Part shown: positions 32,928 to 45,799 of the stretch, in pieces | How the letters are laid out: the number at the start of each line of letters is the position of its first letter | Numbering within the stretch: the stretch's first letter is position 1 | NCBI GenBank assembly: GCA_030448025.1 | Contig: JAUJNQ010000002.1 | Location: 700,473-746,777, forward strand | Source: Acidimicrobiales bacterium | GTDB lineage: Bacteria > Actinomycetota > Acidimicrobiia > Acidimicrobiales > GCA-2861595 | Length of the DNA: 46,305 nt | Reading direction: 5' to 3' | Made by a program: the position numbers and the translations under genes | Notes under the pieces: model-generated | Database searches by the model: none | Told to the model about the DNA's origin: nothing | What the model saw: only the letters and a program-made list of their open reading frames with translations

Positions 32928-33545
32928 CTACGCCCCGAGCGCCCGTCGCAGGACGAGACTGATGGCCGCGACGGCCAACATGACCAGCCCGGCGACGAGG
33001 GCGCCGACCACCACGGCGAGCATCATCAAGCCCAATGCCGAGCGAGCCCGAACGCGAGCCGTCGGGGTGGGAACCTCAGGTTGGGCGGGCCAGCGCCTGG
33101 TGGTGCTCAGACCGGAGGAGAGCGACCGTGCAGGGGGGGGATGCTCGGGCAGTGCCCTCGACGGGGTTCCTTGCACCTCCACCGGGAGGTCCTGCGCCGC
33201 CACTTCCGTAGTCGCCGAACCCGCCTCGGGGGCAGGTTCGTCGGTTTCGACGCTCACCTCCATCACCCTGTCGGCGACCGGCGTGGCCTCGACCGGCTCG
33301 ACACCGACCGGCGTGGCCTCGACCGGCTCGTCCTGGGACTTGTCCAGGCCAGCGGCCCACAGGTGCCAGTCCTCTCGGGTCCAATCGAGGATCGGCTTGC
33401 TTCTCAGTAGGGAGCGCTCTTCGACCTTCGATGCCGCGGACACCTCAGCACCGTTGTGCGCGTGGCCCCCCTCGTCCGTCATTCGGTCGCCTTCGGGCGC
33501 GCCGTGGCCGTTGGCCTTGCCTGCCTCCGAGTCGCTTACGGTCAT
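32928..33545 (-). CDS. Uncharacterised tail-anchored membrane protein with internal repeat
   Basis: A 205-residue protein: hydrophilic acidic N-terminal 160 residues with a SKPILDWTREDWHLWAAGL motif rich in Trp, then a C-terminal membrane helix (about 170-200, LGLMMLAVVVGALVAGLVML). The centre holds a duplicated VEATPV segment encoded by a 30-base tandem repeat. ATG 33545 is chosen; the longer frame runs antisense through the PDZ-Lon gene. It converges with the sortase gene (9 bases between the two stops). Function unknown. Confidence 0.65.
   Translation of the reverse strand: MTVSDSEAGKANGHGAPEGDRMTDEGGHAHNGAEVSAASKVEERSLLRSKPILDWTREDWHLWAAGLDKSQDEPVEATPVGVEPVEATPVADRVMEVSVETDEPAPEAGSATTEVAAQDLPVEVQGTPSRALPEHPPPARSLSSGLSTTRRWPAQPEVPTPTARVRARSALGLMMLAVVVGALVAGLVMLAVAAISLVLRRALGA
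33275..33330. repeat. 30-base tandem duplication in the tail-anchored protein gene
   Basis: A 26-base unit ending GTGGCCTCGACCGGCTCG occurs at 33275-33300 and again at 33305-33330, period 30 bases, so it keeps the reading frame and repeats EPVEATPV-type residues. Confidence 0.8.
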
Positions 33546-39756: not shown

Positions 39757-39811
<55 letters not shown>

Positions 39812-39830
<19 letters not shown>

Positions 39831-41476
39831 CGACATAGCTCCAACCGGGCGTGGACGCGTTCCTGTCCGGTTGGGGCTTGTTTTTCGTAGCGGAGCCTGA
39901 CGCCGAGCGCCCGGTAGAGCTCGGCTCGTTCGGCACGGTCGGATCTGGCGAGCATGAGCACCAGCCCGCCGGCCTGGGTGAGCGTGTCTCGCACCTCCCA
40001 TTCCTTGAGCGGCACAGCGTTCGTCTGAGACCGCTCCCACTGTTCGATGACCGATTGGGCCGCGGCAATATCGGACTGGATCTTGCGCGTCTGGCCGGCG
40101 GCTAGCACGGGGTCCATGCCGGCTCGGACGGCGGCAAGCATGCGGTCGAGTTCGACCTCGAGGCGTTCACGGCTTCGCCGTGATCCGACTACTTCGGCCG
40201 GTTCCGTTTGCAGCGACCGGTCCGCGGCGAGGATCGCCGCGACGGTGGCGTCGATGTGGTCATGGTCGGTGAGGGTGTCGAGCCAGGCATCGACGGCCGC
40301 GAGGATTCGCTCTTCGCGCACCATGTACGTGGGCGGGTGGCCGGGCACCGAAGGGACGGCGTAGTCGGACCGGGTCGCCACGCAGCGGTAGTAGGCCTTG
40401 TTCTTGGCGGTGTTCCCGGACATCGCCTTGCCACAGTGGCCGCAGCGGATGGCACCGGCGAGGACGTACTGACCGGGGCGAGAGCGGGGCCTTCGTGTCC
40501 TGGTGCCGACCGTGGTGGTAATTCGCTTGTTCACTCGCTCGAACAAGTCAGCTGGAATTAGCGCGGGCCAGGAGGGCTGCTCTGACCAGGCCCATGAGTC
40601 GGGGGACTGCCGACGCTGGCGGGAGATGGTGCCGAGGGCCGGGTCACGGGCGCTGAGCAGCTCGTCGTGACGGCGCTGGCGCCCGGCGACCTGCCGCCCC
40701 AGGTAACGGGGGTTGGTGAGGATGGCGCGCACGGCCGAGCCCCCCCAGACACCGGCAGAGCGGGGATGGCGGACCGGGCCGATCTCGCCGGGGCTTGGTA
40801 TGCCTTCGGCCTCCAGCCGCTGTGCGATGGAGCGGAACCCGACGCCCTCGTCGTACAGCTCGAAGATGCGTCGCACGACCGGTGCGGTGTCGGGGTCGGG
40901 CTTGAGGGTGCGGAGCTGGGCGCCGGCCGACGCCTTGCTGCGGTTGGGGTGGGGAAGACCGGTGTCCACGAGGCGGTAGCCGTAGTTGGGTCGTCCGCCA
41001 AGCCATCGGCCCGCGGTCGCCAGTGCCAGGATCGAAGCTCGGGTCCGGTGCTGGACCCGCCGGCGCTCGGCCTTCGACAACCCGCCGAAGAGGCTCATCA
41101 CAAGGTCGTGGGCTTCGCTGTCGGGGTCGACCGGGCCACCCACCTCGGGCACCCACAACTGCACGCCGTAATGGCAGAGCACGGGGAACACGAGCTGGAA
41201 CTGCGCCCCCGAAAATGCGCGCTGTGGCTCGCCGATCACCAAGTTCGTCCAGCCGCAGCCAGGGTCAGTGATGTCGGCGAGAAGCCGACTCGCCTCTGGG
41301 CGGCGAGACCAGGGGAGTGAGCGGCTGACGTCGATGTCGTGGTACACGGCGACGATCCGGCCCTCCTGGGGTCCAATGAGCTGTTGGGCGAGGGAGAGCT
41401 GCCAGCGCCGCGAGTCCTCGGGTGACTGGTTCTCCTCGGTGCTGGTCCGCAGGTAGGCGGCGAATTCGACAGTCAT
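39812..41476 (-). CDS. Large serine recombinase (integrase)
   Basis: A 554-residue site-specific recombinase. The N-terminal resolvase domain has the nucleophile S12 in AAYLRTSTEEN, the ERRRVQHRTRASI long helix, then a Recombinase domain (GGRPNYGYRLV, IFELYDEGVGFRSIAQRLEAEGI), a zinc ribbon (IRCGHCGKAMSG and YYRC) and a C-terminal coiled coil (about 450-500). It integrates and excises the element. Its final residues, RGGGRI, and the TGA stop are read from the complement of the tRNA-fMet 3' end. ATG 41476 overlaps the stop of a small upstream ORF (ATGA). Codon usage is like the neighbours. Confidence 0.93.
39837..39885 (+). terminator. Rho-independent terminator after tRNA-fMet
   Basis: AGCTCCAACCGG (39837-39848) pairs with CCGGTTGGGGCT (39867-39878) with one G-U, followed by TGTTTTT. 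On the plus strand it would end the tRNA transcript 7 bases after the gene. The DNA lies on the element side of the junction and within the recombinase coding sequence. Confidence 0.55.
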
Positions 41477-41969: not shown

Positions 41970-42818
41970 TCACGGGACAACCCGCCTTCGGAAGACCAGT
42001 ACGTCCTCGTGGGCGATGACCAACTGTGGCGCGCCTCGATGTCGGGACTTGCGGGCATGTTCAAGGGCGAAGAAGGAGGCCCGAGGCACCAGGGTGTTGT
42101 CGCGCAGGCCTGCTAGGAGGGCCACGTTGCGCTCGAAGAGCACCAGCCCGGCCTGCTCGCCAACCCGTCCAATGGCCCCCGGCAAGTCGACGAGCTGTCC
42201 GTGGCGACGCCAGGGCCGCACGGTCATCGCCACCAGCCCACGGGGCCGCAGCAGGCGGGCACAGCCGACGAGGATGTTGTGGACCGCCCGGAGCAGCTCG
42301 TCCAGGCCTACGGCTGCCAGGTTGGCGGGGTCAGAGGAGTACGCGCAGTCATACTTTGTGACACCCCGACCGGGCCGGGCCCGCACGTGGCCGTGGACCG
42401 ACGGCCCGTAGGGGGGCGAGGTGACCACCAGCGCAACTAGCCCCTGCAGGGCCGGGTCGACCAGCGAAGAGACGTGGCGCCCGTCGCCGATGTGTATTTC
42501 GCCGTGGCCGGAAGCACCGTTGGCTTTGGCGTGGGCCAGGTTGGATGATGCCAGCTCCGCCCACCTCGGCTCGTACTCGACGCCCACCGCGTCCCGCCCC
42601 AGGTGCACGGCCTCGACCAGCGTCGTGCCGATGCCGCACATGGGGTCGAGGACGAAGTCGCCCGGTTCGCTGTAGGCCTCGATGGCCGCCCGGGCGGTGG
42701 CGGGCAGCATCTTTGCCGGGTGGGCGCCCGACGTAGGCAGGTAGCGCCCGGCCCGCTGCGCTCGGGAGGTCCGCTGGGCCACCGGCCACACCGAGAGGGG
42801 AAGACACGGCTCAGCCAC
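41970..42818 (-). CDS. DNA methyltransferase (N4/N6 amino type), second of pair
   Basis: A 282-residue SAM-dependent methyltransferase with motif [17 protein letters not shown]-side VGVEYEPRWAELA, and the catalytic motif IV TSPPY, in the order I then IV with a short spacing. This fits an amino-methyltransferase of the DNA N4/N6 type; an RNA substrate (TRM11-like) is the alternative. It shares SVWPVAQ, HPAKM and AHEDVLVF with the neighbour upstream, so the two are paralogues. GTG 42818 overlaps that gene's stop. No restriction nuclease is near. Confidence 0.85.
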   Translation of the reverse strand: MAEPCLPLSVWPVAQRTSRAQRAGRYLPTSGAHPAKMLPATARAAIEAYSEPGDFVLDPMCGIGTTLVEAVHLGRDAVGVEYEPRWAELASSNLAHAKANGASGHGEIHIGDGRHVSSLVDPALQGLVALVVTSPPYGPSVHGHVRARPGRGVTKYDCAYSSDPANLAAVGLDELLRAVHNILVGCARLLRPRGLVAMTVRPWRRHGQLVDLPGAIGRVGEQAGLVLFERNVALLAGLRDNTLVPRASFFALEHARKSRHRGAPQLVIAHEDVLVFRRRVVP

Positions 42819-43689
42819 GGGCGTCGTCCCCCTTCGTGAAGACCAGAACGTCCTCATGGGCCACGAGGTGGGCCGGCAGGCCGCGGGCCCTGGCCTTGCG
42901 GGTCTGGGTCAGCTGCCAGAACGACGGGCGGGCCACAAGCTCGCTCCCCCGCACGGCGCACAACAGGGCGATGACGTGCTGGTGGTAGGCGAAGCCGACC
43001 TGGCGTGCCAGGGCCACGGTGGCCGCCGCCAGGTCGAAGCAGCGGGCCCGCCGGCGCAGGTTCTTGGTGACTGTGACCAGCAGCCCACCCGGCCGCAGCA
43101 CGGCGTGGCAGGCCTCGTACACCTCCGACATCTGGGCCAGGTAGGTCTCGTCGCGGGCGTGTCCCAGGTTGGCTTGGTTGGCCGAGTAGTTGAGCGAGGC
43201 CCGGTCGCACAGGCTGCGTCCCGCCAGCCACGCCGCCTTGTCGATGGTCCCCACCTCACAGGCGTACGGCGGAGAGGTGGCGACCAGGTCAACCGAGCCA
43301 GCCTCGTCGGCCAGCAGCGTCGGGAGCTGGCGGGCGTCGCCCACCCGCACCTCCCCCAGGGCCCGCCGCTCAGGGGACAGGATGTGGTCGAGGTTGTCCC
43401 GGGCTAGGTCGGCCCAGCGCTCCTCGACCTCCACACCGAGGCAACGCCGGCCGAGCTCGGCGCCTTCCACCAGGGTGGTGCCGATCCCGCACATGGGATC
43501 GACCACTAGCTGTCCCGGGGCTGAGTAGGCCTCGACGATGCGCCGTGCCAGGGCGGGGACCATCTTGGCCGGATGTGCGGTAGAGGCGGCCAGGTAGCGG
43601 TCCTTGCGCTGATACTGGGCAGAGGTCTGGGCCACCGGCCACACGGCCAGCGGGACCTCTTCCTTGTCGTGATGGGGGGATGTCGCCAT
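42811..43689 (-). CDS. DNA methyltransferase (N4/N6 amino type), first of pair
   Basis: A 292-residue methyltransferase with motif [27 protein letters not shown] and motif [13 protein letters not shown]; the C-terminus reads [13 protein letters not shown]. Its paralogue follows with an 8-base overlap. Tandem duplication suggests two specificities or modification of both strands of a non-palindromic site. ATG 43689 is chosen; the frame upstream reads antisense through the winged-helix gene. It is the first gene of a four- or five-gene operon ending in the recombinase, and is divergent from the regulator at 43843. Confidence 0.85.
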
Positions 43690-43842: not shown

Positions 43843-44364
43843 ATGACTACGACCACAGCCCCCACGGCAAAGGAGGCGATCCTCGCTGCCCTCGCCCGCA
43901 AGCCCGATGCCACCGCCACCGAGCTGGCCCAAGACGCAGGCCTCGGTCGCTCCACCGCCGCCAAGGCCCTGGCCGCACTCGAGGCCGAGGGCCAGGTCCG
44001 CCGCACCCTGGGCGGGCGCGACGGCGCCCGGCGCCTGGCTGACCGCTGGGCACCGGCCACGGTGACCGACCAGCCCACGACGCGCCCGAAGAAGCGCCGG
44101 AACAGGGGCTCGACACAGACAGCGCCAACGATCTCGGCTGCGGAGGCAGGTGCTCGCTTGGGCAAGGGCCAGCTGCGGGGCAAGGTGCTGGAGCACCTGC
44201 GGGCCCAGCCCGGAGGTGAGTTCACGCCCAACGCGGTGGCCAAGGCGTTGGGGCACTCGTCCGGCGCCGTCGGCAACGCCCTGGTGCGTCTCGCCGCGGC
44301 TGGTGAGGTGGAGGAGGTGTCCGACCGCCCTCGCCGCTACGCCGTCCCTCCTCACCGCCGCTGA
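43843..44364 (+). CDS. Two-domain winged-helix transcription regulator of the element
   Basis: A 173-residue protein with two winged-helix DNA-binding units. The first (about 8-65) has KPDATATELAQDAGLGRSTA then a recognition helix KALAALEAEGQ and a wing VRRTLGG. The second (about 105-170) has PGGEFTPNAVAKALGHSSGA, NALVRLAAAGE and VEEVSDRPRRYA. A basic linker KKRRNRG joins them. An AGGAG ribosome site precedes ATG 43843. It probably controls its own divergent promoter and/or the motif array just downstream (44409-44512). Confidence 0.82.
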   Translation: MTTTTAPTAKEAILAALARKPDATATELAQDAGLGRSTAAKALAALEAEGQVRRTLGGRDGARRLADRWAPATVTDQPTTRPKKRRNRGSTQTAPTISAAEAGARLGKGQLRGKVLEHLRAQPGGEFTPNAVAKALGHSSGAVGNALVRLAAAGEVEEVSDRPRRYAVPPHRR

Positions 44365-44408: not shown

Positions 44409-44512
44409 CGACTCCATCACTTTTCCATCACGTCGAGCCGCAGGTGATGGAGTCGACCTCCACGATCCTCTCCATCACGCCTTGGGGATGACGCGACGGA
44501 AAAGTGATGGAG
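44409..44512. repeat. Array of five CTCCATCAC motifs (operator or iteron-like)
   Basis: Copies of CTCCATCAC (or TTCCATCAC) lie at 44412-44420 (+), 44423-44431 (+), 44444-44452 (-), 44470-44478 (+) and 44504-44512 (-). Two larger perfect inverted repeats result: CGACTCCATCAC 44409-44420 with 44444-44455 (12 bp), and CTCCATCACTTTTCC 44412-44426 with 44498-44512 (15 bp). The array fills the gap between the regulator gene and the sigma-like gene and ends 44 bases before the latter's start. Confidence 0.85.
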
Positions 44513-44555
44513 CGGGACAGGGGCAATGGCGGCTCCCAACCACAAGGAGCCGCCC

Positions 44556-45464
44556 ATGCGCCCAGTCCAACCCTCCCCCTTCGACACCCTGGAGGAGGCG
44601 TTCCGCCTCCTCGTCGTCGGCCCCTCGCCGCTCAGCCTCAACGGAGCGGCGATCGGCCACGGCCTGCCAGCCCGCCCGATTCCCCTCGACGAGCTGCGGA
44701 GCCTGCTGCTGCATCCCTCGGTGCCCTTCGCCGCTCGAGACGCCGCCTTGAACCTGCTGGTTCGCCGGGCCCAGCGGCGCCGGGACGGGGCCGTGGTGGG
44801 CCTGGCTGGCGTGCTGCTTCCCGGCCTGCGCCGGGCTGCCGCGCCACTGGTCGCTGCCTGTCCGGCCAAAGCCGCCGACCTGGAGGCGGAGATGCTGGCC
44901 GCCCTCGTCCAGGCGGTAGGCGAGGCTCGCCCAGGGGCCGAGCGGGTGGCCGCTCGCCTGGTGTGGTCGGCGGCCCGCCGGGCGCGGGCGCTGCTGGGCG
45001 CTGAGTTCGCCCATCGCAACCACAGCGCATCGACCGCGGCCCCGGCCGAGCCGCCACGGCCCTGGGGGCACCCTGACCTGGTGCTGGCCGAGGCCGTGGC
45101 CGCAGAGGTGGTGTCCGTTGAGGATGCCGAGCTCATCGGCGCCACCCGCGTAGGCGAGGTGCCGCTCCGGCAACTGGCAACGGAGTGGGGCGTGGCCTAC
45201 GACGCCCTGCAGAAGCGACGCCGGAGGGCGGAGCTGGGCCTCGTCGAGTGGATTCTTCGGAATTCCTTGTCCGCGAACTGGCCGGAAACCCCGGTTCTAG
45301 GGGTGCGGGTCGACCCCAGGAAGGGCCACAGGGCACCGGCAGCCCGAGGATGCGCCGCCACCGGAGCGACCAAGGAGGTGAGGAAGACCCACCGCCGGCC
45401 CCGGCCCCTCCGGGGTGGCCGACCCGCCCAGTCGAGCCACACGTCGGAAAGGGGCACCCGCTGA
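44556..45464 (+). CDS. Sigma-factor-like helix-turn-helix protein of the element
   Basis: A 302-residue protein. The first 200 residues are Ala/Leu/Arg helices (RDAALNLLVRRAQRRRD, AARLVWSAARRARALLG). At about 205-240 it carries a sigma-70 region-4-like helix-turn-helix: PLRQLATEWGVAYDALQKRR. The C-terminal 60 residues are basic and of low complexity, and the DNA for them contains copy 2 of the 41-base element. An AAGGAG ribosome site precedes ATG 44556. Its stop overlaps the CTG start of the pilin gene. It is likely the first gene of the conjugation operon; role not proven. Confidence 0.7.
   Translation: MRPVQPSPFDTLEEAFRLLVVGPSPLSLNGAAIGHGLPARPIPLDELRSLLLHPSVPFAARDAALNLLVRRAQRRRDGAVVGLAGVLLPGLRRAAAPLVAACPAKAADLEAEMLAALVQAVGEARPGAERVAARLVWSAARRARALLGAEFAHRNHSASTAAPAEPPRPWGHPDLVLAEAVAAEVVSVEDAELIGATRVGEVPLRQLATEWGVAYDALQKRRRRAELGLVEWILRNSLSANWPETPVLGVRVDPRKGHRAPAARGCAATGATKEVRKTHRRPRPLRGGRPAQSSHTSERGTR
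45265..45305. repeat. 41-base element, copy 2
   Basis: Starts CCTTGTCCGCGAAC, then AACCCCGGTT after 8 bases and GGGGTG at the end. It is inverted relative to copy 1 (43722-43762) and lies inside the 3' part of the sigma-like gene. Confidence 0.75.
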
Positions 45465-45799
45465 CCACACCCACCGCCAAGAAGCTGTTCACCCTCGTCC
45501 TCATTGCCGCCGGGGTGGTGGTGCTCGTCCTCCTGGTGCCGACGCCGGCCCTGGCCCAGTCGCCCGGCCCGTCGCTCTCCGGCGTCATTGACCGGCTCCG
45601 CAACGTGGTGGTGGGGCTGCTGGCCGGGTTGGCCACCCTGTTTCTCACCGTCGGCGGCCTGCGCTACATGACGGCGGGTGGCGACCCCAGCCAGGTGGAG
45701 CGGGCCAAGGTAGCCCTGCGCTCGGCTGCTATCGGCTACGGACTGGCTGCCCTGGCCCCGGTACTGGTGGCCCTCCTCCGCACGGTGGTGGGGGGTTGA
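45461..45799 (+). CDS. VirB2/TrbC-like conjugation pilin, apparent CTG start
   Basis: A 112-residue protein: signal peptide with positive KK and hydrophobic core ending in PTPALA, a short periplasm-side segment, then two membrane helices (VVVGLLAGLATLFLTVGGL and AIGYGLAALAPVLVALL) separated by YMTAGGDPSQVERAK. This is the layout of TrbC/VirB2 pilin subunits in actinobacterial elements. A strong GGAAAGGGG ribosome site lies 6 bases before CTG 45461, which overlaps the TGA of the upstream gene (CTGA). The nearest ATG, 45350, would add a long unrelated N-terminus. Confidence 0.75.
   Translation: MTTPTAKKLFTLVLIAAGVVVLVLLVPTPALAQSPGPSLSGVIDRLRNVVVGLLAGLATLFLTVGGLRYMTAGGDPSQVERAKVALRSAAIGYGLAALAPVLVALLRTVVGG

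Follow-up and report, generated by a model that had tools for sequence, protein, structure and literature searches.

Gene organization of the locus

The window, by which we mean the whole 46,305-nucleotide stretch analysed, closes contig C7, which is 746,777 bp long and belongs to a genome of 2.7 Mb. Its last part holds the left end of an ICE that has integrated next to tRNA-Met (Table 1). The contig, and with it the window, ends 1.7 kb after the start of P1. Gene calls were based on homology and Pfam, and simple ORF calling mis-frames some of the genes. A homologue of the PF13814 relaxase encoded by the relatives described below was not found in the window's own genome assembly, from which the rest of this element is therefore absent.

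Table 1. Features at the left end of the element (positions within the window)
Feature	Position	Strand	Basis
tRNA-Met (CAT), likely left attachment site of the element	39757..39831	+	recombinase ORF overlaps tRNA 3' end
Large serine recombinase (Resolvase + Recombinase + Zn ribbon), element integrase	39812..41476	-	domain search
DNA methyltransferase M2 (N6_N4_Mtase)	41970..42857	-	domain search; homologues in 29/29 loci
DNA methyltransferase M1, overlaps M2, divergent from regulator	42811..43689	-	homologues in 29/29 loci
173-aa regulator, two winged-helix domains (MarR_2, HTH_IclR)	43843..44364	+	domain search
Array site 1, CTCCATCAC	44412..44420	+	sequence scan
Array site 2, TTCCATCAC (site 1 + 11 bp)	44423..44431	+	sequence scan
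Array site 3, CTCCATCAC	44444..44452	-	sequence scan
Array site 4, CTCCATCAC	44470..44478	+	sequence scan
Array site 5, CTCCATCAC	44504..44512	-	sequence scan
RNA hairpin GGCGGCTCC/GGAGCCGCC, pairs P1 Shine-Dalgarno	44528..44554	+	inverted-repeat pairing
P1, 302-aa sigma-factor-like protein, first gene of transfer operon	44556..45464	+	homology; AlphaFold/Foldseek
T4SS pilin (TrbC/VirB2-like), exact start uncertain	45461..45799	+	PF18895, PF04956
Next transfer gene, cut by contig end	45796..46305	+	ORF

The M1/M2 pair was present in every element compared (29/29), from Acidimicrobiia to Amycolatopsis and Dormibacterota. P1 has no match in Pfam or NCBIfam; when its AlphaFold model was searched with Foldseek, it matched sigma factors consistently, with weak E values. 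All nine pairs of the hairpin in the P1 leader are formed in the window and at least six of nine in all 20 relatives compared; the hairpin is kept across genera, with one pair varying among G-C, G-U, and A-U. Its pairing with the P1 Shine-Dalgarno sequence hints that the transfer operon may be controlled at translation.

A phased repeat array in the leader of the transfer operon

The 191-bp intergenic region between the regulator stop (44364) and the P1 start codon (44556) contains five TCCATCAC cores, four of them exact copies of CTCCATCAC and one TTCCATCAC, which span positions 44412–44512 on both strands. The centres of sites 1–3 are 11 and 21 bp apart. The sites are nested in a 12-bp perfect inverted repeat (44409–44420/44444–44455), itself within a longer imperfect one of 15 nt, and a 15-bp perfect inverted repeat (44412–44426/44498–44512), within a longer imperfect one of 23 nt. 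The initial annotation had described five near-identical 9-mers on both strands in about 100 bases, the two perfect inverted repeats, the spacing of the first three centres, and the position between a two-domain winged-helix regulator and the first transfer gene, and each of these was recovered on re-measurement. Its remark that the site is not known from any named family agrees with the literature, to the limited extent searched.

Of 5,000 dinucleotide shuffles of the intergenic region, 2 had some 8-mer present in five copies within 110 bp. Shuffles of the whole 46-kb window reached at least five copies somewhere in 7 of 100 cases, so the cluster statistic by itself is only moderate and, window-wide, not extreme; it is the comparative evidence below that makes the array secure. 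A DNA search of the genome with the array region returned only this locus (plus its own opposite strand). An isolated exact copy of the motif lies at 33258, outside the element, and there is no second cluster in the window or the genome. An Rfam search around the array gave only sub-threshold chance matches.

Site positions are conserved among relatives, whereas their sequence is not

Relatives were gathered from homologues of the regulator and of P1, which yielded some 100 further loci. Arrays were found in Acidimicrobiia, Actinoplanes, Amycolatopsis, Saccharopolyspora, and Dormibacterota, always before P1: nearly all Acidimicrobiia elements and most of the other actinobacterial and Dormibacterota elements carry one, and about a dozen related loci lack a clear 8-mer array. 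The relatives include elements of cultured bacteria, L110 and L116 in Acidiferrimicrobium sp. IK and L149 in Pseudonocardia dioxanivorans CB1190. Plasmids searched for close DNA or protein relatives gave a single distant match, in Embleya; viral contigs gave none; and a further 395 genomes contained no new elements like L099, one of the loci compared below. In one relative (L119, G164:C111), an insertion of approximately 1.5 kb lies between the regulator and an intact array when compared with the 89%-identical L110.

The motif itself differs by element. The motifs include TCCATCA, TACCCC, CCCCCG, AGTCCC, TACTGCAC, TACTACAC, GTGAACAC/TTGAACAC, AGTGACAC, ACGTCCAC, CTACTAG, and CCAAACTAGTACC; many classes can be read as 8-mers with a CRC end. 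In the elements scanned, motif copies were nearly confined to the intergenic region upstream of P1. In the GC-rich DNA of most Acidimicrobiia arrays, a conserved short A/T-rich block (AAATTTCTT) lies beside the repeats; the short version of the array in the window has no clear block of this kind. Two arrays are mixed (L100 and L116): the sites close to P1 are of the CCCCC type and those more distant, on the upstream side, of the TACCCC type, and the arrays look like intermediates of class turnover. Arrays of several classes can also occur within a single genome (G179, G164, G252, and G370), which led us to reject a pure host factor as the explanation of the array.

The geometry of the array, unlike its sequence, is shared. 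A spacing of 11 bp dominates between neighbouring sites (32 pairs in direct and 26 in convergent orientation), other peaks lie close to 22–23 bp, and certain positions, counted from the leader hairpin, recur between classes (-16, -27, -64, -75, -131, and -142, among others). The place of site 5, 16 bp 5' of the hairpin, is filled in most motif classes. Sites with different motifs coincided within 2 bp in 311 of 1,209 cases, whereas the rotation control gave 124 on average and 150 at most; the places of the sites are thus conserved and their letters variable. Fixed places with changing letters are characteristic of sites at which a trans-acting protein binds along one face of the helix. An explanation by RNA hairpins only was rejected, since one sequence is common to copies in both orientations and not all copies pair.

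Judged from these comparisons, the array is one version of a repeat array that heads the transfer genes in a large family of mobile elements of actinobacteria, on which little work has been done. Its element-specific spelling at fixed places would be expected of docking sites whose partner protein evolves fast; this partner is probably the enzyme that initiates transfer.

The MOBC relaxase as candidate partner

Relatives that are long enough encode VirB4, VirD4, and a PF13814 relaxase further down the operon, the relaxase approximately 8 kb downstream with E values of 1e-41 to 1e-50. PF13814 is the MOBC relaxase family (PMC5357655). The AlphaFold model of the relaxase (pLDDT 89) matched DNA-bound MarR proteins and the centromere-binding protein AspA at its N-terminus (E of about 0.003–0.01), which is therefore predicted, by a match at the level of the fold, to be a MarR-like DNA-binding domain.

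Across 27 loci, motif distance was correlated with the divergence of the relaxase winged helix (Mantel r 0.72). The winged helix retained a signal given the rest of the relaxase (partial Mantel 0.28–0.36, p 0.001), whereas the rest given the helix gave 0.01–0.08, which was not significant; within Acidimicrobiia alone, the partial signal specific to the winged helix was 0.08 (p 0.28). P1, virB4, and virD4 are also correlated with the motif (r about 0.70), because all of them share a phylogeny. In comparisons with M1, M2, P1, virB4, and virD4, the relaxase helix always had the larger partial correlation, by margins that were modest over P1, virB4, virD4, and the regulator, and segments in the P1 helix and at other relaxase positions scored as well. 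Motif divergence thus appears to be followed more closely by the winged helix than by the remainder of the relaxase, a suggestive pattern that is confounded by phylogeny.

In the three relaxases of the AGTCCC class, the 49-residue winged helix is identical except at one residue, with regulators down to 59% identical. The relaxases of L099 (G328) and L107 (G370) are on other contigs, and their assignment is uncertain: in G328, a near relaxase and virD4 occur on C107 alone, and this contig is linked to the L099 array, on C250, by elimination only. Relative to the AGTCCC class, the C107 relaxase differs in the recognition helix (TGERR to SGARR) and in the wing (RRGG to RSGG), a difference not counted as proof. 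On balance, the correlations favour the relaxase as the probable partner of the array.

Our leading explanation, to which we give slightly less than an even chance, is that the array is a phased docking array in the transfer-operon leader of a MOBC/T4SS ICE, with the MOBC relaxase as its likeliest partner, serving as oriT and probably also in silencing. We infer the relaxase as partner, the array as oriT, and the regulation of transcription by binding. Half-sites of 8–9 bp, placed every 11 bp or multiples of it in either orientation, would be bound by a sequence-specific protein encoded by the element. Relaxase molecules would dock on the phased sites by their N-terminal MarR-like winged helix, marking oriT and positioning the nuclease domain at a putative nic site in or beside the array; a nic site itself was not found. 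The bound relaxase would also cover the P1 promoter and silence the transfer operon until transfer starts, when VirD4 would recruit the relaxase–DNA complex. With somewhat less assurance, we suggest a hypervariable recognition code between MOBC relaxases and their origins throughout this broad ICE family, in which the MarR-like domain of the relaxase and the 11-bp-phased array would change together at fixed places, giving each lineage a private origin. A change in the recognition helix would come first and turnover of the sites would follow, with partly switched arrays as intermediates.

Set beside known systems, the array would function much as an oriT or the clt/TRS loci described below, and a MOBC oriT is plausible. 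CloDF13 MobC is the prototype of the MOBC relaxases. The elements studied here resemble MOBC oriT regions in the PF13814 relaxase that accompanies VirB4 and VirD4 in the relatives and in the repeat-rich non-coding region at the head of the transfer operon; they differ in that their half-sites follow an 11-bp phase and vary together from one element to another. A limited and partial search of the literature found no comparable array for MOBC oriTs. The clt loci of Streptomyces plasmids and AICEs, with 8-bp TRS repeats bound by TraB (PMC4170104), share with the proposed oriT an actinobacterial setting and a makeup of 8-bp repeats that a transfer protein would recognize on the DNA. However, clt/TraB systems move double-stranded DNA without a T4SS, and the repeats here occupy an 11-bp lattice, some in one orientation and some in the other. 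Membership of the clt/TRS group, which goes with a single FtsK-like TraB and neither relaxase nor T4SS, was rejected on the gene content, as the relatives encode VirB4, VirD4, and PF13814 and the window has a T4SS pilin. Stoperators of the mycobacteriophage L5 type are numerous repressor sites, likewise of element-specific sequence, but they are scattered, whereas the array sites are clustered in one intergenic region.

Alternative explanations

An iteron-type replication origin of the excised element, with the Replic_Relax protein or another protein as initiator and unwinding at the A/T-rich block, seems unlikely. As in iteron plasmid origins, several phased, short, replicon-specific repeats lie beside an A/T-rich block, in most Acidimicrobiia arrays, and PF13814 is named for replication-relaxation and could itself act as initiator. 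However, inverted half-site pairs, common here, are atypical of iterons; the array in the window lacks the clear A/T block; and the elements are integrated. A non-exhaustive search recognized no separate replication initiator in the elements, and the neighbouring genes have no match to a Pfam initiator.

The adjacent genes were assessed in a natural experiment provided by closely related elements. L103 is approximately 81–98% (mostly 89–98%) identical to L099 and L107 in nucleotide sequence per 300-bp bin across the integrase, methyltransferases, regulator, and P1, whereas the arrays are only 64–68% identical, with AGTCCC in L103 and TACCCC in L099 and L107 at homologous sites; the L103 and L099 arrays have a CCCRC part in common. 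P1, M1, and M2 are 96%, 93%, and 94% identical between L103 and L099, which differ in motif, and only 67%, 79%, and 80% identical between L103 and L110, which share one. This double dissociation of regulator, P1, M1, and M2 from the motif indicates that no adjacent gene is a simple specificity determinant.

The initial annotation had proposed the array as a possible operator of the regulator and had suggested looking for motif clusters beside regulator homologues. Under this proposal, the tandem winged-helix protein (P0002) would repress or activate the transfer operon, with one half-site per domain. Its gene is directly upstream of the array in most Acidimicrobiia elements, two winged helices on a flexible linker would suit half-sites in either orientation, and in the 15 loci that have a regulator, its divergence is correlated with the motif (r 0.71; 0.36 given the relaxase helix, p 0.005). 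Nonetheless, between L103 and L099, whose motifs differ, the N-terminal winged helix of the regulator is 97% and the C-terminal one 92% identical, whereas those of L103 and L110 are 55–61% identical (55% in the N-terminal winged helix) with the same motif; the motif does not follow the DNA-binding domains of the regulator. In L119 and L125, the regulator is 1–2 kb away from the array, and in Actinoplanes, Amycolatopsis, and Dormibacterota, arrays occur with no detectable adjoining regulator; outside Acidimicrobiia, no regulator lies between the methyltransferase and the array. The search beside regulator homologues did reveal arrays, but with motifs that differ by element. An operator of the regulator is accordingly as improbable as the iteron-type origin, and of the earlier suggestion of an operator, an iteron-like origin, or an oriT, the first failed the double-dissociation test and is not supported, whereas the origin or oriT part is favoured as the likelier by a MOBC relaxase, in the long relatives, whose MarR-like domain appears to track the motif.

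It is very unlikely that the sites are targets of M1 and M2, with one enzyme for each strand of an asymmetric site and an epigenetic switch of the transfer operon as the outcome. Every one of the 29 loci has tandem overlapping M1/M2 homologues that point away from the array, and the array sites are asymmetric, as two enzymes would lead one to expect, but M1 and M2 are 93–95% identical across elements with different motifs and approximately 80% across elements with the same motif, M2 has no motif signal beyond that of the relaxase helix (0.04, p 0.24), and an 11-bp lattice calls for binding rather than methylation. Least probable of all is autoregulation by the sigma-like P1 through the array: P1 is invariably downstream of the array, its predicted structure is like that of sigma factors, those of the ECF group among them, and a segment of its C-terminal helix scores 0.26, but the L103/L099 and L103/L110 identities given above run against it, its HTH overall is more weakly correlated with the motif than is the remainder of P1, and sigma factors are not usually array binders.

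Implications for actinobacterial ICEs

Actinobacterial ICEs of the T4SS type are poorly known, and a 2011 survey limited its search for T4SS ICEs to MOBF relaxases (PMC3218068). No transfer origin of an actinobacterial MOBC element was found described in a limited search of the literature. The combination of conserved geometry with element-specific sequence could serve as a ready marker of the probable oriT in such elements, and the motif classes would lend themselves, as a natural series, to deciphering the recognition code of a winged helix. The docking model also suggests how related ICEs that share a genome (e.g., G179 and G164) might keep their transfer origins apart. If the relaxase is indeed the partner, the relaxase helix of the window's element should resemble that of the TCCATCA class (PGLDVAQRRLLRL).

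Long relatives (L050/L173, L055/L056, L057/L181, and others) have an apparent second operon of Tad/Flp-pilus-like genes past the T4SS operon, with a TadA-like ATPase and TadE-like and TadB/C-like proteins, as well as a large protein with a LysM/BTAD-like look, all as judged by sequence appearance.
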